64,000 nt of DNA, from positions 992,001 through 1,056,000 of the forward strand of contig NZ_JACHML010000001.1 of NCBI RefSeq assembly GCF_014208045.1, written 5' to 3'. This document shows positions 47,244-64,000 of this stretch, piece after piece; positions within the stretch are counted from its first letter, which is position 1; each line of letters opens with the position of its first letter. The notes beneath the pieces were generated by a model. The model had not been told where the DNA came from. It did not search any database and worked only from the letters and a program-made list of their open reading frames with translations. The translations under genes were made by a program, and so were the position numbers. The stretch is from Microbacterium thalassium (GTDB lineage: Bacteria; Actinomycetota; Actinomycetes; Actinomycetales; Microbacteriaceae).

Positions 47244-47295
47244 TGGTGGGACCCCTTCGTTCTCAGCCGGAGCGCCTCGTTGCGCTTCCGAGATC

Positions 47296-48716: not shown

Positions 48717-48728
48717 GCGCGGCTCCTC

Positions 48729-49223
48729 TCACTCGTCGGCATCGGCGTCGATGCTCCGGTATCCGCCCCGGTAGTAGAGGAGGGGCCGCAGGCCCTCCGC
48801 CCGGTCGAGCCTCGTGACGCGGCCGATCACGATGACGTGGTCGCCGGCTTCGTGCTCGGCCCACAGCTCGCAGTCGACCCACATCAGCGCGTCGTCCAGC
48901 AGCGGGTTCCCGACCGAGCTCGGCGTCCAGTCGATCCCCGCCCACTTGTCGGCTCCGCGACGCGCGAACTGCGCCGAGACGTGGCGCTGCCCCTCCGACA
49001 GGACGTTGACGGCGAATCCGCCGGTCTCGCGGATGCGGGGGTACGAGGTGGAGGACGCCATGACGCTGAAGGACACCAGCGGGGGATCGAGCGACACGCT
49101 GGAGAACGACTGGCACGTGAAGCCGACGGGACCGGCGCCGTCGGTCGCCGTCACGATCGTGATGCCGGAGGCGAAGCGCCCGAGCGTGTCGCGGAAGTGC
49201 GCCTCATCGACCTGCGTCGTCAT
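48729..49223 (-). CDS. Flavin reductase (HpaC/NtaB-like) for the two monooxygenases
   Basis: This 164-aa short flavin reductase has the pattern LGRFASGITIVTATDGAGPV near residue 14, FTCQSFSSVSLDPPLVSFSV near 35 and NVLSEGQ near 72. It would reduce FMN or FAD with NAD(P)H and supply the luciferase-like monooxygenases on either side of it. ATG 49223 has GGGAGG 6 nt upstream. Its position between copy 1 and copy 2 suggests that one reductase serves both. Confidence 0.85.
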   Translation of the reverse strand: MTTQVDEAHFRDTLGRFASGITIVTATDGAGPVGFTCQSFSSVSLDPPLVSFSVMASSTSYPRIRETGGFAVNVLSEGQRHVSAQFARRGADKWAGIDWTPSSVGNPLLDDALMWVDCELWAEHEAGDHVIVIGRVTRLDRAEGLRPLLYYRGGYRSIDADADE

Positions 49224-49279
49224 CGCGTCCTCCCAGGCGGCGGGGAAGCCGGTCTCGGCGAGGCCGGGTGCGCAGGGGA

Positions 49280-50635
49280 TCATCCCGCGTCCCCCGCGAG
49301 GGCCGGAACCTGCAGCCGCCTGCCCGTGGGCCGCGGCAGCCCCATCCGCTCCCGGAGCGTGTCTCCGGAGTACTCCGTCTGGAAGTAGCCCCGCTCCTGC
49401 AGCTCCGGCACCAGCAGGTCGAGCATGTTGCGCATCCCGACGGGGATGCTGGGCGGGTCGAGGTTGAACCCGTCGCACGCTCCGTCCTCGAACCAGTCGA
49501 TCATGCTGTCGGCGACCTCGCCGGGCGACCCGATGAGGATGCGGTGGCCGCCCGCCCGCGCGAAGTCGACGATCATCTCGCGCACGGTCCGCTTCTCGTC
49601 GACCGCCATGCGCCGCCACGTCTCCCAGCGGGAGTTGTTCCCGGGGTTCACCGCGAACCGCTCGGCCGGGATCGCCTCGTCGGCGTCGAGGTCGGCGACC
49701 GAGAACCCGACGGCCGCGCCGAGGCGGCGACGGCCGGCGTCCAGGTCGATGTAGCCGGCCAGCTCGCGCGAGAGCTCCTCGGCCTCGCTCGCGGTCTCGG
49801 CGACGATCGGCACGACGCCGGGGAGCACCTTCAGATCGTGCGGATCTCGCCCCGCCGCAGCCGCGATCTCGCGCACGCCGTCGGCGTACGCGCGCGCCGC
49901 GCGCTTGTCGGACTGCGCGGTGTAGATCGCGTCGGCGACCGTGCCGCCCAGACGCATCCCCGGCGCCGACTGCCCCGCCTGGAAGAGCACCGGATGCCCC
50001 TGCGGGGGACGCATCATGTTGAGGGCCCCCGCGACGCGGAAGTGCGCGCCGCTGTGATCGATGTCGACGATGCCCTCGGTGCGCGCCCACTGCCCGGACA
50101 CGCGATCGGCGATGACGGTGTCGTCGGTCCAGCTGTCCCACAGGGCGCCCACGACATCGACGAACTCCGCGGCCTTGTCGTACCGCGCCTCGGGGGAGGG
50201 CATGGCGTCGAGGCCGAAGTTCTGCGCCCCGCCGAACAGCGATGTGACGATGTTCCACCCGACCCGGCCGCCCGAGAGCCGGTCGAGCCCCGCGAACTGC
50301 CGCGCGGCGTTGTACGGCTCGAAGAAGCTGGTCGACAGCGATCCGACGAGGCCGATCTTGTCGGTGACCCCGATGAGCGCCCCGATCGACGAGATCGGCT
50401 CGTACAGGCCGGTGTTGCGGATGTTGTTGTCACGGATCGTGCCGACGTCGACGCCGTCGCCGAAGAAGACGGCGTGCAGCTTCGCCGCCTCGGCGGCGCG
50501 CGCCATGTCGGCGATCAGGTCGAGCGAGCCGACGTCCTCGATGCGGCTGCGCGGGTCGCGCCAGCTGTCGATCTGGAATCCCGTCGTGAGCATGAACATC
50601 GTGAGGATCATGCGTCGATCCGGTCGCGTGGCCAT
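49280..50635 (-). CDS. FMN-dependent monooxygenase, NtaA/SnaA/DszA family, copy 2
   Basis: This 451-aa paralogue of copy 1 has MILTMFMLTTGFQIDSWR at the start, AAEAAKLHAVFFGDG near residue 50, GRVGWNIVTSLFGG near 125 and SIPVGMRNMLDLLVPELQ near the end. The two copies clearly share ancestry but are diverged along their length. ATG 50635 is chosen because GGAGGC lies just upstream; ATG 50647 would add four residues. A perfect MarR-type palindrome 37 bp upstream suggests control by the adjacent MarR protein. Confidence 0.85.
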   Translation of the reverse strand: MATRPDRRMILTMFMLTTGFQIDSWRDPRSRIEDVGSLDLIADMARAAEAAKLHAVFFGDGVDVGTIRDNNIRNTGLYEPISSIGALIGVTDKIGLVGSLSTSFFEPYNAARQFAGLDRLSGGRVGWNIVTSLFGGAQNFGLDAMPSPEARYDKAAEFVDVVGALWDSWTDDTVIADRVSGQWARTEGIVDIDHSGAHFRVAGALNMMRPPQGHPVLFQAGQSAPGMRLGGTVADAIYTAQSDKRAARAYADGVREIAAAAGRDPHDLKVLPGVVPIVAETASEAEELSRELAGYIDLDAGRRRLGAAVGFSVADLDADEAIPAERFAVNPGNNSRWETWRRMAVDEKRTVREMIVDFARAGGHRILIGSPGEVADSMIDWFEDGACDGFNLDPPSIPVGMRNMLDLLVPELQERGYFQTEYSGDTLRERMGLPRPTGRRLQVPALAGDAG

Positions 50636-50671
50636 CGCCGCCTCCATCGTGTCGCCGTCGAACGCGAAAAC

Positions 50672-50687
50672 AGTAACATTTGTTACT
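50672..50687. promoter_or_regulatory. MarR-type operator AGTAACA-TT-TGTTACT
   Basis: A perfect 7-2-7 palindrome in an AT-rich patch between the MarR gene stop and the start of monooxygenase copy 2. It is the most likely binding site of the MarR protein at 50730-51188. Confidence 0.6.
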
Positions 50688-50729
50688 AAATACGGCGAGC
50701 GCCTCTTCCAGGTCGCGGAAGCGGTCGTC

Positions 50730-51188
50730 TCAGAGCCGCTGCTGGGCGCTCTCGACCACCCGGTCGAGATACCCGACGAAGGCCTCGAACTCGGATGCCG
50801 TGAGCGTCGACATGACCGATCGCACATCGTGCCGGGCGTACGGGACGAGCGACGCGAACGTCCCCGCTCCGCTCTCGGTGGCCTCGAGCAGCTGGCGGCG
50901 CGAATCGGCCGGATCCGCCCTCGAGGCGATGAACCCCTTCGACCGCAGCACCTGCACCGCGCGGCTGACGTGCATGGGCGTGAAGGCGGTCGCCACGCTG
51001 ATCTCGGCCGCGGTGGTCCCCGGCTCCTGCACGATCTGGGCGAGCACCCGCCACTCGGCGTGAGAGAGCCCGACCTTCGCGGCGTGCTCCTGGACGAAGG
51101 GGCGGCTCAGCAGCTGGCTGAGCCGGTGCACCTGCGCCGCGAGCCGCAGCTCGGCCGCCCCGCGTGCATCCTCTGCGTCATCGGGCAT
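50730..51188 (-). CDS. MarR-family regulator of the monooxygenase operon
   Basis: This 152-aa winged-helix protein has the recognition helix region SVATAFTPMHVSRAVQVLRS near residue 66 and the wing RADPADSRRQLL. It lies 94 bp upstream of monooxygenase copy 2 on the same strand, with a perfect palindrome in between. Repression of the monooxygenase-reductase operon is the likely role. The overlapping plus-strand frames in this region lack a start signal and are shadows. Confidence 0.8.
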   Translation of the reverse strand: MPDDAEDARGAAELRLAAQVHRLSQLLSRPFVQEHAAKVGLSHAEWRVLAQIVQEPGTTAAEISVATAFTPMHVSRAVQVLRSKGFIASRADPADSRRQLLEATESGAGTFASLVPYARHDVRSVMSTLTASEFEAFVGYLDRVVESAQQRL

Positions 51189-51221: not shown

Positions 51222-51776
51222 TCAGCCGTCGTGGTCGTGGTCGTGGATCGGGGACTGCGCGAGCGCGCGCTCGACGATCTGGATGTCGCGCAGCTCTTCG
51301 AGCATGCGGTGCAGCAGGGCGTTGAGCTGCTCGACATCGCTCTCGCTCACGTGCGAGAGGATCAGCTCCTGGCCGCGCATCGACACCGGCAGCATCTCGC
51401 TGTGGAGGTCGGCACCGCCTGCCGACAGGTACAGCGGCCGGGAGCCGCGGGGGCCGTCCGACAGGACGAGGAGACCGCGCTCGACCAGCACGCTCACGCT
51501 CTTGGAGACGATCGCCTTGTTGACGACGAGGAACTCCGAGATCTCGGTCGCCGATGCGCCGGGACGGCTGGCGAGGGCAGAGATCACGCGCCACTCGTTC
51601 GTGCCGAGCCCGAACCGACGGCGCAGCTCATGGGATTCGCGCCAGACCAGAGCGTTGGACAGGAGCGCGAGGAGGCGCGGCGTGAACGCGTCCGGGTCGA
51701 GGGCGTTGTGGAGCGGCTCGACGACCGTTCCGTGGGGAAGGGGTGGTCGAGCGGTCCCGTCGGCGTCGATGGCCAT
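51222..51776 (-). CDS. MarR-family regulator with His/Asp-rich C-terminal tail
   Basis: This 184-aa protein has a MarR winged helix (EFLVVNKAIVSKSVSVLVER near residue 80) and extra residues at both ends compared with the usual 140-150. The C-terminus reads IHDHDHDG, a possible metal-binding tail. The ATG has AAAGGAGC upstream. It precedes the MarR gene at 50730 by 33 bp and follows the aldehyde dehydrogenase gene by 91 bp on the same strand. Its target could be the divergent 53.4-kb promoter or the aldehyde dehydrogenase gene. Confidence 0.8.
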   Translation of the reverse strand: MAIDADGTARPPLPHGTVVEPLHNALDPDAFTPRLLALLSNALVWRESHELRRRFGLGTNEWRVISALASRPGASATEISEFLVVNKAIVSKSVSVLVERGLLVLSDGPRGSRPLYLSAGGADLHSEMLPVSMRGQELILSHVSESDVEQLNALLHRMLEELRDIQIVERALAQSPIHDHDHDG

Positions 51777-51867: not shown

Positions 51868-53367
51868 TCAGTGGGCCATGCCCGCCAGCGCCTCGGGGTC
51901 GATGGTCGCGATCGAGCGGGTGTCCTGGAAGGCGCGGACGCCCTCGATGCCCTGCTCGCGGCCGATGCCGGACTGCTTCATGCCGCCGAACGGTGCGCGC
52001 AGGTCCAGTCGGGTGGCGCCGTGGTCGTTGACCCAGACGTACCCGCAGACCAGCTGCGATCCGACGCGGTTGGCCGCCTCGGGCGAGTCGGTCCACACCG
52101 ATCCGCACAGCCCGCCCCACGTGTCGTTGGCCAGTCGCACGGCTTCCTCTTCGGTGTCGAAGGGGATGACAGGGATGACCGGGCCGAACTGCTCCTGGGT
52201 GACCACGCGCAGGTTCACGTCGGGGTCGACCACGATCGCCGGCCGCAGGAAGTTGCCGCCCGCCAGCTCGCCCCCCGGGAGCTGGCCGTACTCGCGCACG
52301 TCGGCGCCGGCGTCCTTGGCCTCCTGGATGATCTCCTCCACGAACGCCTTCTGCGCCGGCTGGTGCAGCGGCCCCATCGTGGTTCCCTCGTCCAGCCCGT
52401 ACCCGATCACGGCCTTGTCCAGACGCGCCGCGAGCCCGTCGACGACCTCGTCCATGCGCGACCGGTGCACGTAGACGCGCTTGGCGTTCATGCAGATCTG
52501 GCCGGTGGTGTCGAAGATCGCGGCGTACAGACGGTCCAGGTGGGTGTCGTCGATGACGGCGTCTTCGAGGAAGACCGCCGCGTCGTTGCCGCCCAGCTCC
52601 AGCGTCACGCGGGTGAGGGTCTTGGAGGCCATCTCCATCATGCGCTTGCCGCCGTTGACGGATCCGGTGAAGCAGACCTTGGCGATGTCGGTGTTCTGGA
52701 TCAGACCCGACATGTTCTCGTCCTTGCCGGTCACGACGTTCAGCACGCCCGGCGGCAGCTTCTCGGCCACGCGCTGCACGACGCGGGTGGTGGCCAGCGG
52801 CGCCGAGGGCGGCGGCTTCACGATCGCGGTGTTGCCCGCCAGCAGCGCGTGCGGAAGAGCCGCGCCCAGGATCGCGATCGGCCAGTTGAACGGCACGATC
52901 ACCGTCACCACGCCCAGCGGCTGGTACGCCACCTCGGTCGAGACGGGGATGGCTCCCGGGATGACCGGAAGCGTGTGGCCCTTGTCGACCTCGTCGGCGA
53001 GCATGAGCGCCAGGTTCCAGCGGATCTCGAACACGAGGGCGTCGATCCAGCCCTCCATCCGGATCTTGCCGTTCTCCTGCGACAGGATCGCCGCGTCCTC
53101 GTCGCGGTCGTCCGCGATGCCGGCGATCGCCTCGGCCATCTTCGCCGCGCGCTCCTGCGCCGACAGCGCCGACCACGCCGGGAACGCCGCGTTCGCCGCC
53201 GCCACCGCGTCGGCGACGTCCTCGGCGGAAGCCGCCGCGGCCTCGCCGACGATGACGCCGGGCTTGCCGGGGTCCGCGATCTTCAGGGTGTCGGCGGTGA
53301 ATCGCTCCTCCCCGCCGATGAACAAGCCGGTCCGCACTCCCGCGGCCGTGCTCAGGGTGTCCGTCAT
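51868..53367 (-). CDS. Aldehyde dehydrogenase, probably aromatic-aldehyde oxidising (copy 2 of inverted pair)
   Basis: This 499-aa near-twin of the enzyme at 41774-43267 has the same NAD-site VIVPFNWPIAILG, base Glu in TLELGGND and catalytic Cys in TTGQICMNAKRV. The sequence identity extends to synonymous sites over long blocks, so the duplication is recent or kept uniform by gene conversion. ATG 53367 has AGAGGTG 8 nt upstream. The promoter region is shared with the split-transketolase operon on the other strand. That context suggests it oxidises the aldehyde that operon releases. Confidence 0.86.
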   Translation of the reverse strand: MTDTLSTAAGVRTGLFIGGEERFTADTLKIADPGKPGVIVGEAAAASAEDVADAVAAANAAFPAWSALSAQERAAKMAEAIAGIADDRDEDAAILSQENGKIRMEGWIDALVFEIRWNLALMLADEVDKGHTLPVIPGAIPVSTEVAYQPLGVVTVIVPFNWPIAILGAALPHALLAGNTAIVKPPPSAPLATTRVVQRVAEKLPPGVLNVVTGKDENMSGLIQNTDIAKVCFTGSVNGGKRMMEMASKTLTRVTLELGGNDAAVFLEDAVIDDTHLDRLYAAIFDTTGQICMNAKRVYVHRSRMDEVVDGLAARLDKAVIGYGLDEGTTMGPLHQPAQKAFVEEIIQEAKDAGADVREYGQLPGGELAGGNFLRPAIVVDPDVNLRVVTQEQFGPVIPVIPFDTEEEAVRLANDTWGGLCGSVWTDSPEAANRVGSQLVCGYVWVNDHGATRLDLRAPFGGMKQSGIGREQGIEGVRAFQDTRSIATIDPEALAGMAH

Positions 53368-53445: not shown

Positions 53446-53500
53446 TGTCAACAGGTTTAGAACTATTCCTGTTTACGGGTAAATCAGATTGTGCTAGCGT
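53446..53500. promoter_or_regulatory. Divergent promoter region of aldehyde dehydrogenase and transketolase operon
   Basis: Leftward -35 TTGACA is the complement of 53446-53451, with only a weak -10 (GATGCT). Rightward: TTTACG (53472-53477), 17-bp spacer, TAGCGT (53495-53500). Two inverted repeats overlap them: AACAGG-N12-CCTGTT (53450-53473) and TTTAC-GG-GTAAA (53472-53483). The second resembles a MarR-type operator. The rest of the 244-bp spacer shows no other structure. Confidence 0.55.
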
Positions 53501-53611
53501 CACTCCCGTCGCTCCGGTGCAGCAGCCGGGGCAGGACGAGCAAGTGTCGACGGAGACCTGCCCCTCGCAGCATCCGATCGGCCCTTCGTGAACTCAACGA
53601 GGAGGCAAGGG

Positions 53612-54487
53612 ATGGCAACGCACACCCTGGAGACGGCAGAGCGTCCGAGCGTCGAAGAGCTCGAGGACCTCGCGTTCGAACTGCGCACGAAGCTCCTGCA
53701 CCTGTGCGGGACGTACGAGGGAGCGGTGCACATCGGCGGAGACCTCTCCGCGGCCGACATCTTCACGGCCCTCTACCACTACGGACTGCGCGTCGACCCG
53801 GACGACATCGCCAACCCGGCCCGCGACCGGTTCGTGCTCAGCAAGGGCCACGCCGCCGTCTGCATGTACATCGCGATGGCGATGCGCGGGTTCTTCTCGT
53901 ACGACGGCATCGTCGAGACCTACGGCCAGCTCGACAGCGCCTACGGCATGCACCCGTGCAAGGTGCAGCTGCCCGGCGTCGAGTGCTCGACCGGCTCGCT
54001 CGGCCACGGTCTGCCCCTCGCAGTGGGCATGGCGCTCAGCGCCCGCCACCGTCGCGAGGACCACCGCGTCGTGTGCCTCCTCGGCGACGGCGAGACCGGT
54101 GAGGGGAGCGTCTGGGAGGCGGCGATGGCCGCCCGCAGCAACGAGCTCGGCAACCTGGTCGCCTTCATCGACCGCAACCGCCAGCTCATGACGAGCTTCG
54201 CCGAGGAGCGCGTCGTGTTCGAGCCCTACCCCGACAAGTGGCGCGCGTTCGGCTGGAACGTCGTCGAGGTCGACGGGCACGACATGGGGGCGCTCGTCGC
54301 GGCGATCGACGCGCTGCCGGCCACCGACAGCGACCGGCCCACGGTCGTCATCGCCGAGACCGTCAAGGGCAAGGGCGTCGACTTCATGGAGCACAACCTC
54401 GCGTGGCACGCGGGCTCTCTCGGCGCCGCCGACCTGGAGCGGGCCCTCGCCGCCCTCGAGTCCACCCGCAACAAGGAGAGCGTCTGA
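53612..54487 (+). CDS. Split transketolase, N-terminal (TPP-binding) subunit
   Basis: This 291-aa protein corresponds to the first domain of transketolase. It shows SKGHAAVCMYIAMAMRG near residue 75, GSLGHGLPLAVGMAL near 131 and the thiamine diphosphate motif GDGETGEGSVWEAAM, with the closing Asn in FIDRN near 188. With the subunit encoded next it would move a two-carbon ketol unit from a ketose to an aldehyde. Split transketolases often serve special catabolic routes rather than the pentose phosphate pathway. ATG 53612 has GAGGAGG upstream. It is the first gene of the operon. Confidence 0.88.
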   Translation: MATHTLETAERPSVEELEDLAFELRTKLLHLCGTYEGAVHIGGDLSAADIFTALYHYGLRVDPDDIANPARDRFVLSKGHAAVCMYIAMAMRGFFSYDGIVETYGQLDSAYGMHPCKVQLPGVECSTGSLGHGLPLAVGMALSARHRREDHRVVCLLGDGETGEGSVWEAAMAARSNELGNLVAFIDRNRQLMTSFAEERVVFEPYPDKWRAFGWNVVEVDGHDMGALVAAIDALPATDSDRPTVVIAETVKGKGVDFMEHNLAWHAGSLGAADLERALAALESTRNKESV

Positions 54488-55449
54488 TGCCTGTCACCTT
54501 CACCTTCGGCGAGTTCCTCGGTGCCCGCTCGGTCATCGGGTCGACCCTCGCCGAGCTCGGCGAGACCCACGAGAACCTGTGGGTCATCACCCCCGACATC
54601 GGGGCCACCCTCGTGGAGTTCCGCGACAAGTACCCCGACCGCTTCCTCGACGTCGGCCTCGCCGAGCAGGTCAGCGTCGGCATCGCGGCCGGCCTCGCCT
54701 ACGACGGCAACATCCCCGTCGTCTCGGGCATGCTGCCCTTCCTCAGCATGCGCGCGCTCGAGCAGATCCGCACCGACGTCTGCTACCCGAACCTGCCCGT
54801 CAAGATCATCGGCACGCACGGCGGGCTCGTCGGCAACGGCGGATCGACCCACTACGCGGTCGAGGATCTGTCGCTCATGTGCTCGCTGACGAACATGACC
54901 GTCACCTCCATCGGCGACCCGCTCATGGTCGGCGAGATCATCCGGCAGTCGATGACGATGCAGGGGCCCCTCTACATCCGCCTCGCCGTCGGCAAGAAGG
55001 ACAAGGTCCTCTACGAGCCCGGCGAGCACGAGGTCCGCATCGGGAAGGGAATCGTGGCGCGGCAGGGCACGGACGCGACGATCTTCACGCACGGCACGAC
55101 CGTCGCGCAGGCGCTCGAGGCGGCCGAGAAGCTCGCCGAGGACGGCCGGTCGATCCGCGTCGTCGACATGTTCACGCTCAAGCCCATCGACGAGGACCTC
55201 ATCCTCCAGTGCGCCGACGAGACCGGCGGCCGGTTCGTCGTCCTCGAGGACCACCTCGCCTACGGCGGGCTCGCCACCCGCATCGCCGACGTCATCGCCG
55301 ACCGCGGTCTGTGCCTGAAGGGATTCGAGCGCCTCGGCATCCCGCAGGTCTACGCCGGCTTCGGCGAGGACGAGCAGCTGCGCGACAAGTACGGCTACGG
55401 GCTCGAGGCGACCATCGCCGCGACCCGCCGCGTGCTGGCCGCGTCCTGA
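54487..55449 (+). CDS. Split transketolase, C-terminal (pyrimidine-binding) subunit
   Basis: This 320-aa protein has the Pyr domain and transketolase C-terminal domain. The catalytic Glu that activates the cofactor is in DVGLAEQVSVGIAAGLA near residue 60. THGGLVGNGGSTHYAVEDLS near 115 carries the His residues that bind the donor substrate. It forms the active site at its interface with the N-terminal subunit. The start shares one base with the preceding stop (TGATG), so the two are made in equal amounts. Confidence 0.88.
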   Translation: MPVTFTFGEFLGARSVIGSTLAELGETHENLWVITPDIGATLVEFRDKYPDRFLDVGLAEQVSVGIAAGLAYDGNIPVVSGMLPFLSMRALEQIRTDVCYPNLPVKIIGTHGGLVGNGGSTHYAVEDLSLMCSLTNMTVTSIGDPLMVGEIIRQSMTMQGPLYIRLAVGKKDKVLYEPGEHEVRIGKGIVARQGTDATIFTHGTTVAQALEAAEKLAEDGRSIRVVDMFTLKPIDEDLILQCADETGGRFVVLEDHLAYGGLATRIADVIADRGLCLKGFERLGIPQVYAGFGEDEQLRDKYGYGLEATIAATRRVLAAS

Positions 55450-55477
55450 ACACCCGCCATTCTCAACGGAGAGATCG

Positions 55478-56548
55478 ATGAAGACAGTCGCCGTCACCAA
55501 GATCGGCAGCCTGCGCGACCCCGACGAGTCGACTCGGGGGCGGGTCGGCCTGGTCGACTTCCCCGACCAGCCGCTCGGGCCCGAGGACGTCCGCATCCGC
55601 GTCGCCTACGCCGCGATCTGCGGATCGGACCCGCACCTCGCCGAAGGTTTCTTCGGCACCGACGTGCCCATCGGGCTCGGCCACGAGATCTCGGGGGTCA
55701 TCGAGGAGCTCGGCGAGCGCGCGAACCGCAACGGCCTGCAGGTCGGCGACCGCGTCGCCGGCAACTTCCTGAAGTTCTGCGGCACGTGCCGTCCATGTCA
55801 GGCGGGCGCGCAGCAGTTCTGCGAGCACATCCAGGACTACAACCGTCCCGGCATGGCCGAGACGATCGTTTGGCACGAGTCCCAGGTCTACAAGCTGCCC
55901 GACGACGTGTCGCTGCTGAAGGGGTGCCTTCTGGAGCCGACGTCGGTCGCCGTGCGCATCGCCGACAAGACGCGCGTTCGCGTCGGCGATCGCGTGGCGG
56001 TGTGCGGCGGCGGGCCGATCGGCCAGCTCGCGCTCCAGGTCATGAAGATGTACGGGGCGACCTCGCTGACGATGATCGAGCCGATCGCCGACCGTCGTGA
56101 CATGGCGCTGCGCCACGGCGCCGAGCATGTGATCGACCCCGTGGCCGAGAACCAGTTCGAGCGCACCGACGAGATCACCGGCGGAGCGGGCTTCGACGTC
56201 GTCATCGACGCCTCGGGCTCGACGCGCGCGGTGAAGGGGCTGCTCGACATCGCGGCCAAGGGCGGCATGGTCGTCTACGGCGCGATGTACCCGCACGACT
56301 TCGAGATGCCGCTGAACCTGTCGGACTACCTGTACCTCAAGGAGCTCACCCTCACGGGCGTGTTCGTCTCGCCCTACGCGTTCCCGCGGGCGCTCCAGGT
56401 GCTGCCCCACCTCGACGTCGACGAGCTCACCGAGGCCGTGTTCCCGCTCGACCGCGCCGAGAAGGCATTCGAGGTCCACGTCAGCGGCGCGTACCCCAAG
56501 GTCGTCATCCGCTGCAACGAGATCCCGGAAGAGACGGTGACGTCATGA
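55478..56548 (+). CDS. Zn-dependent medium-chain alcohol/polyol dehydrogenase
   Basis: This 356-aa enzyme has catalytic-zinc residues in AAICGSDPH near residue 46 and GLGHEISG near 66, the structural-zinc Cys cluster CGTCRPCQAGAQQFC near 98-112 and the cofactor motif CGGGPIGQLALQ near 173. It belongs to the sorbitol/threonine dehydrogenase branch and would oxidise a secondary alcohol to a ketone. In this operon it could make the ketol that the transketolase cleaves. It overlaps the following ATPase gene by ATGA. Confidence 0.85.
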   Translation: MKTVAVTKIGSLRDPDESTRGRVGLVDFPDQPLGPEDVRIRVAYAAICGSDPHLAEGFFGTDVPIGLGHEISGVIEELGERANRNGLQVGDRVAGNFLKFCGTCRPCQAGAQQFCEHIQDYNRPGMAETIVWHESQVYKLPDDVSLLKGCLLEPTSVAVRIADKTRVRVGDRVAVCGGGPIGQLALQVMKMYGATSLTMIEPIADRRDMALRHGAEHVIDPVAENQFERTDEITGGAGFDVVIDASGSTRAVKGLLDIAAKGGMVVYGAMYPHDFEMPLNLSDYLYLKELTLTGVFVSPYAFPRALQVLPHLDVDELTEAVFPLDRAEKAFEVHVSGAYPKVVIRCNEIPEETVTS

Positions 56549-58062
56549 GCGACGAGGCTGCGGAATCCGCCCCCCTCGCCCTCGAGGCGAGCGGCATCGT
56601 CAAGCGCTTCGAGGGCGTCCACGCCCTCGAGAACGCCCGGCTGGACGTGCGCCCGGGCGAGATCCACGCGCTGCTCGGAGAGAACGGGGCCGGCAAGTCC
56701 ACGCTCATCAAGGTGATCACCGGGCTGTACGACGCGGACGCCGGCGAGATCCGGGTGCGGGGCGAGAAGGTCGAATTCGACAACGTGCGCGAGGCCAACG
56801 CCGCGGGCATCGTGGCGCTCTACCAGGAGCTGTCGATCATCCCGACCATCAGCGTCGCCGAGAACATCCTGCTGGGGGAGCAGACCCCCTCCAGCGGCGG
56901 CGTCGTGCAGTGGGGGAAGCTCCGCAAGCGCGCCCAGGAGCAGCTCGACAAGATCAACAAGAAGATCCCCCTCGGCAAGCTCGGCTTCGAGCTGTCGCCG
57001 GTGCAGCAGACGATGGTGGCCTTCGCGCGGGCGCTCGCCACCGACGCGAAGATCCTCATCCTCGACGAGCCGACCGCGTCGCTGACCGACACCGAGATCG
57101 TCGACCTGTTCACGGTGCTGCGGGGGCTGCGCGACCAGGGCGTGGCGATCCTGTACGTCTCGCACCGCCTCGAGGAGGTCTTCGAGCTGTGCGACCGCCT
57201 CACGATCATGCGCAACGGTCAGACGATCGTCACCAAGGACGTCGCCGACTCCCACGTCGACGAGGTCATCTCGACCATGGTCGGCCGCGCCGCCGATGAG
57301 CTGTTCCCGGCGCGGGCGACCTCGATCGGCGAGCCGGTCATGACCGTCGAGGGGCTCACCGGACGTCGCGTGCAGGACGTCTCGCTCCAGGTGCACGCCG
57401 GTGAGGTCCTCGGCGTCGGCGGACTCGCCGGGGCCGGACGCAGCGAGCTGCTGCGCATCCTCTCGGGCGCCCAGAAGCACGTGCACGGCACCATCGCCGT
57501 CGGCGACGAGATGCTGCCGCATTCGCCGGGCGTCGCCCGCGCGCTCGAGGCGGGCGTCGCGCTCGTCCCCGAGGAGCGGCGCAGCCAGGGCGTGATGCTC
57601 AAGGCGTCGATCCAGGACAACATCGCCATCGCCAACCTCCCGTCGGTGAGCACGTCGGGGGTCGTCGCGGGCGGCCGCATCATCGACATCGCCAAGCGCG
57701 GCATGCAGGACCTGCAGATCAAGGCGCGCAGCCCGCGCCAGCACGTCGGCGAACTGTCGGGCGGCAATCAGCAGAAGGTCGTGCTCGCCAAGATGCTCGC
57801 GCGAAAGCCGCGCGTGCTGCTCATGGACGAGCCCACACGCGGGATCGACGTCGGCACGAAGGCCGAGATCTACCGGCTCATCCGGCGATTGGCAGAGGAC
57901 GGAACGGCGATCATCGTCGTCAGCTCCGAGCTGCCCGAGCTCATCGGGATGAGCGACCGGATCATCATCATGCACGAGGGGCGGATATCGGGCGAGGTCC
58001 CCGCCGAGGATGCGGACGAAGAGGTCCTTCTCGCCTACTGCTACGGAAAGACCGGAAAGTGA
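56545..58062 (+). CDS. Ribose-type ABC importer, double ATP-binding subunit (RbsA-like)
   Basis: This 505-aa protein has two ABC modules. The first has Walker A GENGAGKST near residue 45 and Walker B ILILDEPTAS near 172. The second has a degenerate P-loop (GLAGAGRSE), the signature LSGGNQQKVVLAKML near 402 and Walker B VLLMDEPTRG. This one-degenerate-site layout is typical of the CUT2 family for pentoses, polyols and related compounds. The two ATG/GTG junctions couple it to neighbours on both sides. Confidence 0.87.
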   Translation: MSDEAAESAPLALEASGIVKRFEGVHALENARLDVRPGEIHALLGENGAGKSTLIKVITGLYDADAGEIRVRGEKVEFDNVREANAAGIVALYQELSIIPTISVAENILLGEQTPSSGGVVQWGKLRKRAQEQLDKINKKIPLGKLGFELSPVQQTMVAFARALATDAKILILDEPTASLTDTEIVDLFTVLRGLRDQGVAILYVSHRLEEVFELCDRLTIMRNGQTIVTKDVADSHVDEVISTMVGRAADELFPARATSIGEPVMTVEGLTGRRVQDVSLQVHAGEVLGVGGLAGAGRSELLRILSGAQKHVHGTIAVGDEMLPHSPGVARALEAGVALVPEERRSQGVMLKASIQDNIAIANLPSVSTSGVVAGGRIIDIAKRGMQDLQIKARSPRQHVGELSGGNQQKVVLAKMLARKPRVLLMDEPTRGIDVGTKAEIYRLIRRLAEDGTAIIVVSSELPELIGMSDRIIIMHEGRISGEVPAEDADEEVLLAYCYGKTGK

Positions 58063-58064
58063 CC

Positions 58065-59054
58065 ATGACGAACAACGACAAGGCTCCGACGACCAGCACC
58101 GTCGTCATGGGCCACGCATCGAACGCCGGGAAGTGGATGCTGCAGGGCGGGACGCTGGTCGCCCTGATCGCGCTGATCCTGTTCTTCTTCCTGATGCGAC
58201 CGGACGTGTTCCTGGGATTCACCAACGTCCGGAACATCCTCTACCAGGTCTCGATCCTCGCGATCATCGCGGCGGCGCAGACGATGGTCATGGTCGTGGG
58301 CGACTTCGACCTGTCGGTCGGCGCGAACTCCTCCCTGGCGGGGGCCACCGCCGCCGCGCTCATGCTCGGGGGGACGCCGATCCCGATCGCGATCCTCGCG
58401 GCTCTCGTCGTCGGCACCCTCATCGGCCTCTTCAACGGCTATCTCGTGGCGTATCTGAAAGTGTCGGCGTTCGTCGCGACGCTCGCCTCGATGACCTCCG
58501 TCATCGGCATCAGCTACCTCGTGACCGGGGGGACGACGCTGTTCAACTTCCCGCCGGAGTTCAACGCGCTCGGGCAGGGACGGCTGTTCGAGATCCCGCT
58601 GCCGGTGTACTTCGCGGTCGTCGTCGCGCTCGCCACGTGGTTCGTCCTGCGCTACACGACCATCGGCCGGCGCTGGTACGCCGTCGGCGGCAACCACGAG
58701 GTGTCGCGCCTGTCGGGCGTGAACGTGCGGCGCGTGCGCCTCATCGCCTTCGTGCTCGCCGGCACCGTCTCGGCCCTGGGCGGCATCCTGCTCGCCGCGC
58801 GGCTCGGCAGCGCCAGCGCCACCCAGGACGGCAACAACATGATGTTCGCGGTCGCCGCGGTGTTCCTCGGCATGACGATCGCCCGGTCCGGGGCCGCGAA
58901 CCTCGTCGGCACGATGATCGGCGTCATGATCATCGGCGTCCTGGCCAACGGCCTCAACATCCTGGGCGTCAACGCCTACATCCAGCAGGTCATCACCGGC
59001 CTGATCATCGTGGCCGCGGTCACGCTCTCGGGGCTGAGGAGCCGAGAACGCTAG
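58065..59054 (+). CDS. Ribose-type ABC importer, permease (RbsC-like)
   Basis: This 329-aa membrane protein has about ten hydrophobic segments and the CUT2 permease motifs GDFDLSVGANSSLAGATAA near residue 82 and AVGGNHEVSRLSGVNVRRVR near 207. A single permease gene implies a homodimeric channel. ATG 58065 has GGAAAG 5 nt upstream; GTG 58059 overlaps the ATPase stop and is a possible alternative. Confidence 0.86.
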   Translation: MTNNDKAPTTSTVVMGHASNAGKWMLQGGTLVALIALILFFFLMRPDVFLGFTNVRNILYQVSILAIIAAAQTMVMVVGDFDLSVGANSSLAGATAAALMLGGTPIPIAILAALVVGTLIGLFNGYLVAYLKVSAFVATLASMTSVIGISYLVTGGTTLFNFPPEFNALGQGRLFEIPLPVYFAVVVALATWFVLRYTTIGRRWYAVGGNHEVSRLSGVNVRRVRLIAFVLAGTVSALGGILLAARLGSASATQDGNNMMFAVAAVFLGMTIARSGAANLVGTMIGVMIIGVLANGLNILGVNAYIQQVITGLIIVAAVTLSGLRSRER

Positions 59055-59064
59055 CGACCCACAC

Positions 59065-59082
59065 GAGCGGGCCCGCCCGCTC
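59065..59082. promoter_or_regulatory. Hairpin before the binding-protein gene
   Basis: GAGCGGGC-cc-GCCCGCTC is a perfect 8-bp palindrome in the 70-bp gap between permease and binding-protein genes. It probably marks an RNA processing or stability element. Confidence 0.45.
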
Positions 59083-59124
59083 ACGCACCGAAGAGAAAAC
59101 GCATCACTGACAAAGGAGTGCAAC

Positions 59125-60117
59125 ATGCGTAGCTCACTGAAGACGCTCGCGGCGGTCGCCGCCGTGGCGACCCTCGCCCTCACCGGCTGCTCGTCCGGCG
59201 ACTCGGGCGGTTCGACCGATGGCGGCGGCGGAGACGAGCCGTTCCGCGTCGTGGCCTTCACCTCCGGCAACCAGACGCCCATCGGCGCGTGGTGGGTCAA
59301 GGAGGTCGAGGCGCAGGCCGAGGAGCTCGGCTGGGAACTGACGATGATCCAGGGTGACTTCGACTTCCAGAAGATGAACCCCGCGGTCGAGAGCGCGATC
59401 GGCCAGGGCGCCGACGCGGTGTTCGACGGCTACACCGACTACGCGTCGATCGGGTCGATCATCACCGCCGCGAACGATGCGGACATCCCGATCTTCGCGA
59501 TCGACTCCGGCACCGAGGCCACCGACGCGTTCGTGCTCAACATCACGACCAACCAGCAGGGCATCGTCGACCAGACGCTCGGCGCGATCGACGAGGCGCT
59601 CGGCGGTATCGAGGGCAAGAACATCATGGTCATCGGGCACGACCCGCACCCCGGCATCCGGATGCGGTCCAACCTCGCCGCCGACGACCTCGTCGCCGCG
59701 GGCGCCGTGCTCGCCGGTGGCGAGATCCAGCAGGTGAAGTCGCCCGCGAGCGGCCGCACCGAGGCGCTCGCGCTCGTCGCGGACTACCTCGCAGCCAACC
59801 CCGACGGCCTCGACGCCGTGTGGGTCGGCTGGGACGACGCCGCCCTCGGCGCGTCGCAGGCCGTCCAGGAGGCCGGTTCGTCGGCGTTCGTGACGGGCGT
59901 CGACGCGGTGGCCGAGGCCATCGCCGCCATCGAGGCCGGCACGATGCTCGCCACGATCGAGCAGCCCTGGCCGTCGATCAACGACGACGTCATCGCGTCG
60001 ATGGTCGAGTACCAGAACAGCGGCACCCTCCCCTCGAGCAACTTCGAGACGGTGGACACCACTCTGGTGAACGAGTCCAACGCTGCCGACATCACCCCGT
60101 CGGACCAGCTGGGCTGA
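59125..60117 (+). CDS. Ribose-type substrate-binding lipoprotein
   Basis: This 330-aa receptor (periplasmic binding fold type 1, RbsB-like) has a lipoprotein signal ending in LTGC with lipidation at Cys22 and a Ser/Gly-rich linker. The receptor core starts at RVVAFTSGNQTPIGAWW. NPAVESAIGQGADAVF near residue 88 and IDSGTEATDAFV near 127 follow the sugar-receptor layout. An unusual Trp-rich patch (TPIGAWWVKE) and VWVGWDDAALGAS could face the ligand and would suit an aromatic ring, but this is speculation. Hairpins flank the gene on both sides. Confidence 0.85.
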   Translation: MRSSLKTLAAVAAVATLALTGCSSGDSGGSTDGGGGDEPFRVVAFTSGNQTPIGAWWVKEVEAQAEELGWELTMIQGDFDFQKMNPAVESAIGQGADAVFDGYTDYASIGSIITAANDADIPIFAIDSGTEATDAFVLNITTNQQGIVDQTLGAIDEALGGIEGKNIMVIGHDPHPGIRMRSNLAADDLVAAGAVLAGGEIQQVKSPASGRTEALALVADYLAANPDGLDAVWVGWDDAALGASQAVQEAGSSAFVTGVDAVAEAIAAIEAGTMLATIEQPWPSINDDVIASMVEYQNSGTLPSSNFETVDTTLVNESNAADITPSDQLG

Positions 60118-60125
60118 CACAGGCC

Positions 60126-60153
60126 GGCGGGGACGCCCGAGGGCGTCCCCGCC
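60126..60153 (+). terminator. Strong stem-loop after the binding-protein gene
   Basis: GGCGGGGACGCC and its perfect complement form a 12-bp stem with a 4-nt loop, 8 nt after the stop codon. It probably raises binding-protein output relative to the catabolic genes that follow. Confidence 0.65.
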
Positions 60154-60200
60154 GCTTCCCCCGACATCCACCTGCAGCGAGGCAGAGAAGAGGAACGCGC

Positions 60201-60971
60201 ATGCGTTTGAAGGACAAGGTCGCCCTCATCACGGGCGGCGCGAGCGGAATCGGACTGGCGACGGTGAAGAAGTTCATCGCCGAGGGCGCGAAGGTCGCCA
60301 TCGCCGACATCAACGTCGAGCAGGCCCAGCAGGTCGTCGACCAGCTCGAACCCGGCAGTGCCGTCGCCGTCGGCGTGGACGTGTCGAAGCTGGCCGAAGT
60401 GGAGGCCGCGGTCCAGAGCGCCGTCGACGCGTTCGGAAAGCTCGACGTGATCTTCAACAACGCCGGGATCGCCGGCGGCAAGCCTCTGCTCGATCAGGAC
60501 CCGGCCGTCGACTACGAGCCGATGATCCGCGTCGACCAGGACGGCGTCTACTACGGCATCCTCGCCGCGGGGCGCCAGTTCAAGAAGCAGGGGACCGGCG
60601 GCGTCATCATCTCGACCTCGTCGATCTACGGCGAGCAGGCGGCCGAGCTGTCGTTCTCGTACAGCGCGGCCAAGGCCGCCGTCATCTCCTTCACCCGATC
60701 GGCCGCCTACGAGCTGGCGGAGTACGGCGTGCGGGCCGTCGCCATCACGCCGGGCCGCGTCGCCACGCCGATCATCAACCAGTTCTCCGACGAACTGAAG
60801 GCGACCTTCGCCTCGGAGCAGCTGCGCAACAAGATGACCGCGCCCGAGGAGATCGCGAACGTCGTGGCGTTCCTCGCCTCGGACGAGGCGAACGTCATCA
60901 ACGGCACCGTCGTGCACGTCGACGACGGCTACTCGGTGTTCAAGCAGCGCCTGGATCTGCCGGTCTTCTAG
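60201..60971 (+). CDS. Short-chain dehydrogenase/reductase (SDR)
   Basis: This 256-aa classical SDR has the cofactor motif TGGASGIG near residue 11, NNAGIAGG near 87, the catalytic Ser in ISTSSIYGEQ near 139 and YSAAK near 152. Asp near residue 37 (IADINVEQ) suggests NAD rather than NADP. It ends with a family-type VDDGYSVF segment. It would oxidise a secondary hydroxyl of the imported compound or a product of it. The ATG has an AGAAGAGGA site. Confidence 0.87.
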   Translation: MRLKDKVALITGGASGIGLATVKKFIAEGAKVAIADINVEQAQQVVDQLEPGSAVAVGVDVSKLAEVEAAVQSAVDAFGKLDVIFNNAGIAGGKPLLDQDPAVDYEPMIRVDQDGVYYGILAAGRQFKKQGTGGVIISTSSIYGEQAAELSFSYSAAKAAVISFTRSAAYELAEYGVRAVAITPGRVATPIINQFSDELKATFASEQLRNKMTAPEEIANVVAFLASDEANVINGTVVHVDDGYSVFKQRLDLPVF

Positions 60972-60983
60972 CAGGACGTGGCC

Positions 60984-61907
60984 ATGACCTTCGAACTGGA
61001 CATCGCCTGCCACCTCAGCGCCCTCGTGCCGGATCCGTCCGGCGACGCGGTGCCGGCGGCGCTCGACGCCGTCGCGGCGGCCGGCTACCGCCGGGTCGTG
61101 CTGCCGCCCATGCCGCTCGACCTCGCGGAGGCCGAACGCCTGCGGGTGCTCATCACCGACCGGGGGCTCGAACCCATCGCGATGTGCGGGCAGACCCCCG
61201 ACGCCGACGTGTCGTCGCCGGATGCGGCGGTGCGCGAGGCCGGGCTCCGGTCGCTGCGCGAAGCGCTCGCATTCACCCTGGCGCTCGGTGCCGACCAGCT
61301 CAACGGCGTGCCCTACGCCCCGTTCGGCGCGAGCGCGCCGACCGGCGCGGACGCCATCGAGCGGTCTGCCAAGGACGTGGGGCTCCTGGCCGATGAGGCG
61401 CATGACAGCGGCGTGACGCTCACCTTCGAGGTCCTCAACCGCTACGAGACCTCGTTCGTGAACACCGCCGACCAGGCGATGCGCTACGTCGAGCTCAGCG
61501 GCTCGGATCATCTGCGCATCCACCTCGACACCTTCCACATGGCCGTCGAGGAGGCCGACATGAGCGCGGCGATCCGCACCGCTCTGCCTCGGCTGGCGTT
61601 CCTCGAACTCGGCCAGTCCGGGCGCGGGCTGCTGAGCCAGGGCACGGTGCCCGTCGCCGACGTCGTCCGGCAGGCGCTGGACGACGGCTACGAGGGACGG
61701 TTCGGGCTCGAGGCGTTCTCGCGCCCCCTCATGGCCGAGCCGGTCGCCGACATGCTGGCGATCTGGCGCGACACCTACGACGACGGCACCGTCATCGCCC
61801 GCGACGCGATGGACGTCATCCGTCAGGGCTGGGCCGCGAGCACGGTGGGCCGGCGCGCCCAGCGGCTGGCGCGGGGCGCCACCGGCCCCATCCCGCAGAC
61901 GGCGTGA
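60984..61907 (+). CDS. Sugar phosphate isomerase/epimerase-like TIM-barrel protein
   Basis: This 307-aa protein of the xylose-isomerase-like TIM-barrel (AP_endonuc_2) family has Glu in LTFEVLNRYETSFVNT near residue 150, Asp/His in HLRIHLDTFHMAVEEAD near 177 and a late Glu in FGLEAFSRPL near 236. These match the metal ligands of tagatose 3-epimerase-type enzymes, which interconvert ketoses or aldose and ketose. It could move a carbonyl along a C3 side chain or sugar before transketolase cleavage. ATG 60984 is chosen; GTG 60978 lies too close to the AGGA. Confidence 0.83.
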   Translation: MTFELDIACHLSALVPDPSGDAVPAALDAVAAAGYRRVVLPPMPLDLAEAERLRVLITDRGLEPIAMCGQTPDADVSSPDAAVREAGLRSLREALAFTLALGADQLNGVPYAPFGASAPTGADAIERSAKDVGLLADEAHDSGVTLTFEVLNRYETSFVNTADQAMRYVELSGSDHLRIHLDTFHMAVEEADMSAAIRTALPRLAFLELGQSGRGLLSQGTVPVADVVRQALDDGYEGRFGLEAFSRPLMAEPVADMLAIWRDTYDDGTVIARDAMDVIRQGWAASTVGRRAQRLARGATGPIPQTA

Positions 61908-61938
61908 GATCCGCGCCCCGAGATCCACAGGGAGAATC

Positions 61939-63423
61939 ATGACGATCATCCAGGACACCGACGTCCTCCTCGACCCGGCGGCCTTCGGCGGCCGGATCTT
62001 CATCGACGGCGAATGGGTGCCCGGCGCGGGCGGCACGGTCGACTCCGTCGCACCCGCCACCGGCGAGACGGTCGCCACCGTCGGCCTCGCCGGGCCCGAG
62101 GACGTCACGCGGGCCGCCCGCAGTGCGGCCGTGGCGCAGAAGGAATGGGCGGCGCTGCCGCACCCGGCACGTGCGGCGGTGCTGCGCAAGGCCGGGATGC
62201 TGTGGGAGCAGTACGCCGACGAGATCTCGGGCTGGAACATCCGCGAGGTCGGGGCCATCCCGCCGCTGGCCGGATTCGCCCTGCACGTGACGGCGGCGGA
62301 GTGCTACGAGGCCTCCGCCCTCCCCTCGGCGCCGCTGGGCTCGATGCTCTCGAGCGAAGAGCCGCGCCTGTCGCTGACGCAGCAGATCCCGGTCGGGGTC
62401 GTCGGCGTCATCTCGCCGTTCAACGTCCCGCTCATCCTCGGGATCCGGGCCGTCGCTCCCGCGCTCGCGCTCGGCAACGCGGTCCTCCTCAAGCCCGACC
62501 CGCGCACCATCGTGACCGGGGGTGTGGCCTTCGTCCGCATCTTCGAGGAGGCCGGCCTGCCGCCGGGGCTGCTCCAGCTCGTCCCCGGGGGCGCCGATGT
62601 CGGCCAGGCGATGATCGAGGACCCGCACGTGCGCGTCATCGCCTTCACCGGCTCCACGCGCGCCGGCCGCAGCGTCGGCGAGCAGGCCGGCAAGCACCTC
62701 AAGCGCGCGCACCTCGAGCTGGGCGGCAACTCCGCCTTCATCATCCGTGAGGACGCCGACGTCGACCAGGCGGTCAATCTCGCCACGTGGGGCTCGTTCC
62801 TGCACCAGGGGCAGATCTGCATGACGGTCGGCCGCCACATCGTCCACGAGTCGGTGTTCGACTCCTACGTCGAGAAGCTCGCGGCGAAGGCGGACTCGAT
62901 GGCGGTGGGCGATCCCGCGGCCGGCCCCGTGCACCTCGGCCCGCTCATCGACGAGGTCCAGCGCGATCGCGTCCATTCGCTCGTGATGGATGCCGTCGCC
63001 CACGGCGCCGAGCTGCGCGCCGGAGGCAGCTACGAGGACCTGTTCTACCGGCCGACGGTGCTCGCGAACATCCCCGCCGATGCTCCGGCGTACTGCGAGG
63101 AGGTCTTCGGGCCGGTCGCCTCGGTCGTGTCGTACTCGACCGACGATGAGGCGGTGGAACTGGCATCCGCCACCGACTACGGACTGTCCCTCGGGATCGT
63201 CACGAAGGACGCGCTCGCCGGATGGGAGCTCGCGCAGCGGATCCCGACGGGCATCGTCCACATCAACGACCAGACGGTCAACGACGAGGCGAACACGCCG
63301 TTCGGCGGCACCGGCTCCTCGGGCACCGGGTCGCGCCACGGGGGCGTGCAGGCCAACATCGACGCCTTCACCGAGACGCGCTGGATCACCATGCGCCGTG
63401 AGCCGGGGCAGTTCCCGCTGTAG
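61939..63423 (+). CDS. Aldehyde dehydrogenase, benzaldehyde-dehydrogenase (XylC)-like
   Basis: This 494-aa enzyme has NAD-site GVISPFNVPLILGIRAVAPA near residue 155, NAVLLKPDPRTIVTGG near 178, base Glu in HLELGGNS near 258 and the catalytic Cys in HQGQICMTVGRH near 294. The C-terminal half pattern NDQTVNDEANTPFGG is typical of aryl-aldehyde dehydrogenases (XylC, salicylaldehyde and vanillin dehydrogenases). Its placement after transketolase, polyol dehydrogenases and isomerase suggests it oxidises an aromatic aldehyde product of the operon. It is unrelated at close range to the twin aldehyde dehydrogenases. Confidence 0.85.
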   Translation: MTIIQDTDVLLDPAAFGGRIFIDGEWVPGAGGTVDSVAPATGETVATVGLAGPEDVTRAARSAAVAQKEWAALPHPARAAVLRKAGMLWEQYADEISGWNIREVGAIPPLAGFALHVTAAECYEASALPSAPLGSMLSSEEPRLSLTQQIPVGVVGVISPFNVPLILGIRAVAPALALGNAVLLKPDPRTIVTGGVAFVRIFEEAGLPPGLLQLVPGGADVGQAMIEDPHVRVIAFTGSTRAGRSVGEQAGKHLKRAHLELGGNSAFIIREDADVDQAVNLATWGSFLHQGQICMTVGRHIVHESVFDSYVEKLAAKADSMAVGDPAAGPVHLGPLIDEVQRDRVHSLVMDAVAHGAELRAGGSYEDLFYRPTVLANIPADAPAYCEEVFGPVASVVSYSTDDEAVELASATDYGLSLGIVTKDALAGWELAQRIPTGIVHINDQTVNDEANTPFGGTGSSGTGSRHGGVQANIDAFTETRWITMRREPGQFPL

Positions 63424-63443
63424 CGGTCCGCTCTCCTTCGACG

Positions 63444-63544
63444 ACACGGGGTCTTCCGCTCGAGCCCGTGTTCCACTTCCGGTCGCCTGCCGCTGTCGCG
63501 GCCGACAGGAAGTGGGACACGACGCGCTGACGGGGACCCCGTGT
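63444..63544. repeat. Large nested imperfect palindrome in the gap before the last SDR
   Basis: Two inverted-repeat pairs share one centre at 63494. ACACGGGGTC (63444-63453) pairs with GACCCCGTGT (63535-63544). CGTGTTCCACTTCC (63467-63480) pairs with GGAAGTGGGACACG (63508-63521) with one mismatch. CCGTGTTCC-like words recur again at 63539 and 63592. It resembles an extragenic palindromic (REP-like) element more than a simple terminator. It fills most of the 223-bp gap. Confidence 0.55.
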
Positions 63545-63646
63545 TCCGTGCGGCGAAAGTGGCGTTGAGCAGCGGCATCCGCCCCTCCACAGTGGAACGG
63601 ACGCGTCGTGGGCCCGCCCGACGGACGGCTTCGGAGGAGAACCAGG

Positions 63647-64000
63647 ATGCTCGATCGCCGCGTGGCGCTGATCACCGGATGCGGGAAGCCCGACGGTGCG
63701 GGGCGGGCGATCGCCGCCCGGCTCGTCGAGGACGGCTTCGCGGTGGTCGTCACCGACCGCGCCCCGCAGGGCGTGCCGAACGCCGGCGAGCAGGCGCGTG
63801 ACGGCGGGGACGGCATCGCGGACTTCGCGGCCGAGGTCGAGGCATCCGGCGGCACGGCGCTGGCGCTGACCGGCGACATCGGCGACCCCGTCGACGTCGA
63901 GCGGATGGTCGGCGACGTCCTCGCGCGCTTCGGACGCATCGACGTGCTCGTCAACAACGCCGCCGCGCCCCAGGGCCCCGACCGCGTCGACATCGCGGAC
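63647..64000 (+). CDS. Short-chain dehydrogenase/reductase, 5' part only (cut by window edge)
   Basis: The ATG at 63647 follows GGAGGAGA. The visible 118 residues begin MLDRRVALITGCGKPDGAGR, a variant SDR cofactor motif (GCGKPDGAGR for TGxxxGxG). They include the Asp of VVVTDRAP near residue 37 and VLVNNAAAPQGP near 104. The catalytic Ser-Tyr-Lys part lies beyond 64000. It is on the same strand as the transketolase operon but separated by the palindromic element. Confidence 0.8.
   Translation, partial: MLDRRVALITGCGKPDGAGRAIAARLVEDGFAVVVTDRAPQGVPNAGEQARDGGDGIADFAAEVEASGGTALALTGDIGDPVDVERMVGDVLARFGRIDVLVNNAAAPQGPDRVDIAD

Follow-up and report, generated by a model that had tools for sequence, protein, structure and literature searches.

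The 64,000 nt of the Microbacterium thalassium genome analysed here, referred to below as the window (positions 992001-1056000 of a single-contig 3.70 Mb genome, 70% GC), ends in a forward-strand operon that encodes a split transketolase (TK) and that may specify the import and cleavage of arylglycerols. It begins with TKN, the N-terminal, thiamine diphosphate (ThDP)-binding subunit (53612-54487), preceded by an AGGAGG motif at 53600-53605, and TKC, the pyrimidine-binding and C-terminal subunit (54490-55449). These are followed by a Zn polyol 2-dehydrogenase-like protein (55478-56548), whose closest solved relative is the L-iditol 2-dehydrogenase 4oh1; the ATPase (56545-58062), permease (58059-59054) and Peripla_BP_4 substrate-binding protein (59125-60117) of a sugar-type ATP-binding cassette (ABC) importer; a short-chain dehydrogenase (SDR; 60201-60971); a ketose 3-epimerase-like TIM barrel (60984-61907); a second aldehyde dehydrogenase (ALDH; 61939-63423); and a second SDR (63647-64501), the last gene of the operon, the 3' part of which lies past the window end at 64000. 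Divergent from the TK genes is a proposed aryl aldehyde dehydrogenase (51868-53367, reverse strand, start codon read from the sequence), alongside a MarR-family regulator on the same strand (51222-51776). Open reading frame (ORF) calls and hidden Markov model (HMM) matches agree with the initial annotation on the presence, order, coordinates and common strand of the genes that it had named. It had also seen no sugar kinase, and the same holds downstream as far as approximately 82.8 kb: none was present among the 11 proteins scanned with Pfam between 63647 and 82832 (including 67970-69163), the remaining ORFs of that stretch having been read as translations.

Elsewhere in the window lies an ALDH gene (41786-43264, forward strand), the product of which is 93% identical to the TK-divergent ALDH. 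It adjoins genes on the reverse strand for a PadR-family regulator (43302-43922) and a LigM-type vanillate/3-O-methylgallate O-demethylase (44021-45427), the naming of which in the initial annotation is borne out by a score of 867.7 bits against NF047885, for which the curated cut-off is 580. Also on the reverse strand are genes for a PurU-type formyltetrahydrofolate deformylase (45483-46367) and a protein resembling methylenetetrahydrofolate reductase (MTHFR; 46371-47312; PF02219 33.2 bits, cut-off 24, with no NCBIfam match), both candidates for the handling of one-carbon (C1) units.

The order of genes in the operon is not a product of chance, because it recurs in whole or in part at 57 other loci. 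These form a clade (L012-L068) among the best 80 of the 219 loci obtained in a scan with TKC, sharing 66-96% identity in this subunit; the next locus shares only 40%. By the titles of their records, 56 are actinobacterial, the other (L047) being a metagenome-assembled genome titled Gammaproteobacteria. Among the 57, several of which are cut by contig ends, 46 have the MarR gene, 39 the divergent-type ALDH, 48 the Zn dehydrogenase, 40 the SDR, 48 the TIM barrel and 47 the importer ATPase. A second copy of the core, L010, without a transporter, is found in the M. thalassium genome itself at around 150.3-157.1 kb (approximately 4264-11145 of G000:C1 146001-162000); its products are 49% (MarR), 64% (ALDH), 75% (TKN), 69% (TKC), 75% (Zn dehydrogenase), 64% (SDR) and 56% (TIM barrel) identical to those of the window.

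An operator-like palindrome, with the clade consensus TGTTTACNNGTAAACA, separates the ALDH or MarR gene from TKN in 43 of the 57 loci, at up to two mismatches, and has no match elsewhere in the DNA of those 43. It was not found in the other 14, among them L018, L036 and L068, nor in the paralogous cluster L010. The window's copy, TGTTTACGGGTAAATC (53470-53485), differs from the consensus at two positions and is the sole match in the genome at this threshold. Since this rare palindrome sits in their shared divergent promoter, the divergent ALDH and the TK genes look co-regulated, and the MarR protein likely acts on this promoter. It had been hoped that the palindrome would also place LigM in the regulon; this was not shown, the only genomic site being that at TKN.

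A link between TK and LigM nevertheless emerges from their distribution. In an even sample of 149 genomes from the family, TK was detected in just three, one of these at only 40% identity; as this was too sparse, a sample of 149 genomes from the genus of L013 (Microbacterium rhizomatis) was used, with LigM matches accepted at E-values up to 1e-180. Taking the two counts as referring to the same 149 genomes, as their matching labels indicate, TK is present in 20 and LigM in 39. LigM is present in every one of the 20 TK genomes, which leaves it in 19 of the 129 genomes lacking TK (Fisher's exact test, p ~ 2e-14, counting genomes as independent and leaving shared ancestry uncorrected). The co-occurrence with ligM for which the initial annotation had suggested looking is thus strongly positive. 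The genes are also close together: in 13 of 15 genomes the distance from TK to LigM is no more than 25 kb, a proximity shared by two of 110 other Peripla_BP_4 genes. This test omitted five more fragmented TK genomes, in which LigM lies within 25 kb (G165 and G167), at about 45 kb (G184) or only on other contigs (G155 and G216), making 15 of all 20 within 25 kb.

Across the wider clade, 32 of 44 genomes with TK have LigM, all scoring over the cut-off, and 36 have either LigM or VanA. The family sample contains LigM in nine of 149 genomes (seven over the cut-off) and VanA_C in six, both figures including the window's own genome. With that genome omitted, the contrast in LigM (32/44 against 8/148) gives a Fisher p of ~3e-19, although the genus comparison is the better of the two because the TK-clade and family samples differ in their make-up of genera. 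Co-occurrence with VanA_C is weaker, at eight of 44 against six of 149.

Within 10 kb of the 57 loci, LigM, VanA or VanB genes flank 18, MTHFR or PurU genes ten and aromatic-ring genes seven, with at least one such marker at 25. The same markers were found at none of the 23 outgroup loci L069-L091, which belong to other phyla where the queries are less sensitive. In Aurantimicrobium minutum (L055), genes for 4-hydroxybenzoate hydroxylase, VanA and a VanB-like reductase precede the whole operon at its 5' side, and a LigB-type gene lies 3' of it. VanA and VanB-like genes are found near TK in L062, and phenol-hydroxylase-like and/or intradiol dioxygenase genes in L048, L049, L059, L064 and L067. 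L049 encodes two flavin aromatic hydroxylases, a catechol-type intradiol dioxygenase, an amidohydrolase and an Fe-type alcohol dehydrogenase family protein that reads as a maleylacetate reductase. The TIM barrel gene directly follows TKC in L048, L049, L060, L062, L064 and L067, and neither importer nor Zn dehydrogenase was found in the available DNA of these six loci; the contigs break off after TKC in L059 and soon after the TIM barrel gene in L060 and L062. The genomes containing L048, L049, L055, L059, L062 and L067 are 1.3-1.8 Mb in size, and in some small genomes TK is retained next to genes for vanillate demethylase or of hydroxyquinol type. Also recurrent beside TK, in L048, L049, L059, L060 and L067, is an Amidohydro_3-type protein of around 590 aa.

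The transketolase consists of separate, adjacent N (ThDP) and C (pyrimidine-binding and C-terminal) chains, and the best-scoring solved structure for both is the split TK of Carboxydothermus hydrogenoformans (6yaj/6yak). We aligned 59 C chains, including those of the window and L010, and 58 N chains with 23 comparators, using the numbering of Escherichia coli TK. The catalytic machinery is retained: H66, H100 and H261 are found in all 58 N chains, and H26 in 57, with a gap in the other, while E411 and H473, as well as R358 and H461 of the phosphate site, are conserved in all 59 C chains. By contrast, the R520 column, which contains Lys in 17 and Arg in six of the 23 comparators, is Gly in all 59 C chains (Val in a smaller alignment). 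F434 is replaced by Met, and the loop between H461 and H473 is one residue shorter, with Gly in the D469 column. This last change was considered as a diagnostic mark of the clade, then downgraded because most comparators also lack D469.

Comparable changes are seen in the importer's binding protein, aligned over 43 sequences from the window and 42 of the 57 loci (that of L050 being partly out of frame). At positions which we take to be the ribose contacts, Trp occupies N190 and a Ser, Ala or Gly occupies R90 in all 43, whilst small or aliphatic residues replace F15 and F16 throughout; D89 and R141 are retained in every sequence and D215 and Q235 in 42. The TIM barrel has strong overall similarity to ketose 3-epimerases, its closest solved relatives, whose metal ligands we assume to be Glu, Asp, His and Glu. 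In all 48 sequences the His is replaced by Glu, so that the ligand set of the ketose (D-tagatose) 3-epimerases is not reproduced, and the motif GESHRG reads as a GQSGRG-like sequence; the first Glu and the Asp are present in all 48, and the last Glu in 47. Hence the predicted substrate-site positions of TK, binding protein and epimerase differ, across the clade, from those of the sugar-using relatives with which they were compared. Such altered pockets do not by themselves show that the ligand is an aryl compound.

Metal motifs are present in the Zn dehydrogenase, a YxxxK motif in the SDR, and ELGG and GQIC motifs in both ALDHs of the operon region. The initial annotation was right to identify these last two as ALDHs; the HMMs did not confirm its labels 'aromatic-type' and 'XylC-like', comparison with NCBIfam and the Protein Data Bank not being decisive for an aromatic substrate. 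Only generic names were found in the best 120 of 1948 homologues of the divergent ALDH, the second-ranked match being the 93% identical copy at 41786. The second ALDH scored 227.5 against the sulfoacetaldehyde dehydrogenase model SafD, far under the cut-off of 700.

The interpretation we favour, with a probability of roughly 0.6, is that these genes encode a pathway for the import and cleavage of an aromatic compound whose side chain resembles glycerol, an arylglycerol such as guaiacyl- or syringylglycerol being the likeliest. The gene set would then probably remove the three-carbon tail from lignin fragments to give vanillin-type aldehydes. This reading draws on the gene content, the shared operator, the genomic link to O-demethylation and the altered substrate-site positions, all of which are features of the sequence itself. 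The ABC importer would take up the arylglycerol, which the Zn dehydrogenase and the first SDR, acting on different stereoisomers at C2, would oxidise to Ar-CHOH-CO-CH2OH; the epimerase-like TIM barrel would set the configuration of the benzylic carbon by epimerisation at C3. The split TK would then cleave between C2 and C3; ArCHO would be set free and the C2 ketol unit handed to an aldehyde-bearing sugar phosphate from the pentose phosphate pathway, and no kinase would be needed because this acceptor is already phosphorylated. The ALDHs would oxidise the vanillin- or syringaldehyde-type product to the aryl acid, with LigM, VanAB or PobA and subsequent ring cleavage completing the breakdown. 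The enzyme families thus correspond to polyol 2-dehydrogenation, epimerisation beside a ketone, C2-C3 cleavage and aldehyde oxidation, which with R = aryl would make up a complete route from arylglycerol to aryl acid. Arylglycerols are described, in excerpts from PMC8157907, as products of the action of fungal lignin peroxidase on lignin models and synthetic lignin.

Among the closest precedents is the sulfo-TK pathway for sulfoquinovose, in which, according to parts of PMC11659671, a split-gene TK (SqwGH) uses glyceraldehyde 3-phosphate as the acceptor of a C2 ketol, and the leftover non-sugar aldehyde is oxidised or reduced. The proposed route likewise involves C2 transfer by a split TK, an aryl group taking the position of the sulfo tail; it would differ in having an aromatic leaving aldehyde, a link to O-demethylase and a single cleavage. 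No isomerase or sulfoacetaldehyde enzyme of the sulfo-TK pathway was found among the HMM labels obtained, a comparison which did not extend to the reference proteins of that pathway. A split-TK operon on the Rhizobium plasmid pT136c (L103) resembles that of the window in combining the TK with a sugar ABC importer and an SDR, but it also has an FGGY kinase and a sugar-binding regulator, and its TKC is approximately 36% identical, with the R520 column occupied by Arg and the D469 column by Leu. We presume that it may be of the apiose type.

The C. hydrogenoformans TK has the same two-chain architecture as that of the window, whereas by our reading of the alignment it retains the Arg of R520 and the Asp of D469, unlike the clade. 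It accepts phenylacetaldehyde, as reported in sections of PMC7661550 that make no mention of an aromatic operon. Excerpts from PMC5073344 describe E. coli TK evolved in the laboratory for benzaldehydes, through the substitutions S385Y/D469T/R520Q; the D469 and R520 columns are thus altered both there and in the clade. The evolved enzyme differs in using aldehydes as acceptors for synthesis and in its replacement residues, and the S385 column of the clade is mostly Thr rather than Tyr. In the arylglycerol-beta-aryl ether (GGE) pathway of Sphingobium and Novosphingobium, as outlined in parts of PMC11837543 and PMC12997858, several SDRs act on the lignin side chain en route to vanillate, a role similar to that proposed here for an SDR; however, that pathway relies on beta-etherases and oxidation of beta-hydroxypropiovanillone, and the word transketolase is absent from the main texts of both papers. 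A literature search that reached only a minority of subscription papers and no bioRxiv preprints, such that an earlier report is possible, retrieved nothing joining transketolase with arylglycerol, with syringate and O-demethylase, or with apulose; two papers contain transketolase together with guaiacylglycerol.

Several observations weigh against an arylglycerol substrate. That the compound is an arylglycerol, that R is aryl and that an aryl aldehyde is released are steps that we infer. The scores of both ALDHs are far under the NCBIfam cut-offs of every family listed; no palindrome was found at LigM in the genome search at up to two mismatches; and none of the chosen markers is found within 10 kb in 32 of the 57 loci. 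In TK, the residue that follows the R520 column is a Lys that could substitute for R520, the S385 column is Thr (57/59) or Ser (2/59), and the D469 position is Leu in 19 of the 23 comparators. The remaining points favour the main rival explanation, a pathway for a sugar or polyol (branched, as is apiose, or deoxy or methylated) within an island for the catabolism of plant matter, in which TK would cleave a sugar ketose and the ALDHs would oxidise a small aldehyde. The importer and the enzymes are of sugar families, the MarR protein marginally exceeds the threshold for TrmB, a family of sugar regulators (25.8, cut-off 25.6), and ribose is the annotated ligand of both 4ry0 and 5ibq, the solved structures nearest to the binding protein, the latter of which we take to have been solved with apiose. 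L018, L036 and L068 are associated with LacI-type regulators (by Pfam in L018 and L068, by reading of the translation in L036) and have no detected ALDH of the operon types, L018 and L036 also having no detected SDR or epimerase of these types, and L068 has an MFS_2 sugar-type transporter; the kinase-bearing Rhizobium operon is likewise of sugar type. Despite their regulators, these three loci carry the same TK site as the rest of the clade, and they fall inside its MarR- and ALDH-bearing part in a TKN-TKC tree, several inner nodes of which are weakly supported; the binding proteins of L018 and L036 have the same altered type of pocket. A sugar pathway would leave unexplained the closeness to LigM, which so few other sugar-binding-protein genes share (2/110), no kinase was present among the genes scanned, the presumed sugar contacts are changed in both binding protein and epimerase, and the small-genome loci keep TK and the TIM barrel among aromatic genes where importer and Zn dehydrogenase were not seen. 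We regard this explanation as unlikely; the arylglycerol reading of the initial annotation has gained partial support from the ligM link, the lack of a detected kinase and the altered substrate sites, with the sugar alternative kept alive by L018, L036 and L068.

It is more doubtful still that TK cleaves a different aryl ketol, derived, for instance, from a longer polyol that bears an aryl group, an arylpropanediol containing nitrogen or a compound resembling a C-glycoside. The aromatic context counts equally for such substrates and the length of the side chain is not fixable from sequence, yet a triol side chain of three carbons would suit the enzyme families present (polyol 2-dehydrogenase, ketose 3-epimerase and TK) with no need for others. 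A role in C1 metabolism, with TK as a dihydroxyacetone synthase fixing the formaldehyde from O-demethylation, would account for the association with VanAB and folate genes, as seen in the PurU and MTHFR neighbours and in the VanA and VanB-like genes of L055 and L062. It is highly improbable, as folate is the acceptor of the methyl group in the LigM reaction, which is not known to yield formaldehyde, VanA_C is found in so few of the TK-clade genomes, and the importer, epimerase and dehydrogenases would be left without a role.

Taken at its broadest, the arylglycerol reading would imply a widespread and so far undescribed actinobacterial pathway, a proposal with about even odds, in which thiamine-dependent C2 transfer, rather than oxidative or glutathione chemistry, strips the arylglycerol side chain of lignin. 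Two dehydrogenases and an epimerase would funnel stereoisomers to one ketol, from which a specialised split TK would feed two side-chain carbons to the pentose phosphate pathway and release vanillin- or syringaldehyde-type products. If so, aromatic and central sugar metabolism would be directly connected through TK, a function would be assigned to an operon of many Actinobacteria, and there would be a natural enzyme for a reaction towards which protein engineers have worked in the synthetic direction.

Further genes of note surround the operon. On its 3' side, Pfam matches identify two major facilitator superfamily transporters, a FAD_binding_3 hydroxylase that reads as PobA-like, an IclR regulator, an alpha/beta hydrolase and a thioesterase, then a Zn alcohol dehydrogenase, a LysR regulator, an FAA hydrolase and a glyoxalase-fold protein. 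Reverse-strand genes in the interval separating the LigM cluster from that of TK (47415-50827) encode a luciferase-like monooxygenase (47418-48716), a second similar ORF and, judging from its translation, a possible flavin reductase, with a further MarR gene at 50730-51188. A second LigM/DesA-like protein is encoded at 9401-10783 (reverse strand), scoring under both curated cut-offs (486 against 800 for DesA; 447 against 580 for LigM), and genes for a UPF0261 protein and a PEP_hydrolase-like protein (27167-29279, forward strand) lie 5' of a GMC oxidoreductase gene. An extra Zn dehydrogenase, a FAD_binding_2 protein and an electron transfer flavoprotein gene are found 3' in L018 and L036, Pfam having been run on L018 only. 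Beyond the clade, the split TKs of L075-L091 are mostly from Bradyrhizobium and other Alphaproteobacteria, that of L080 lying among nucleotide-sugar and epimerase-like genes as read from their translations, whilst that of L104, on a Streptomyces plasmid (NZ_CP108363), lies inside a LysW/LysX-type cluster and possibly performs a biosynthetic C2 transfer.

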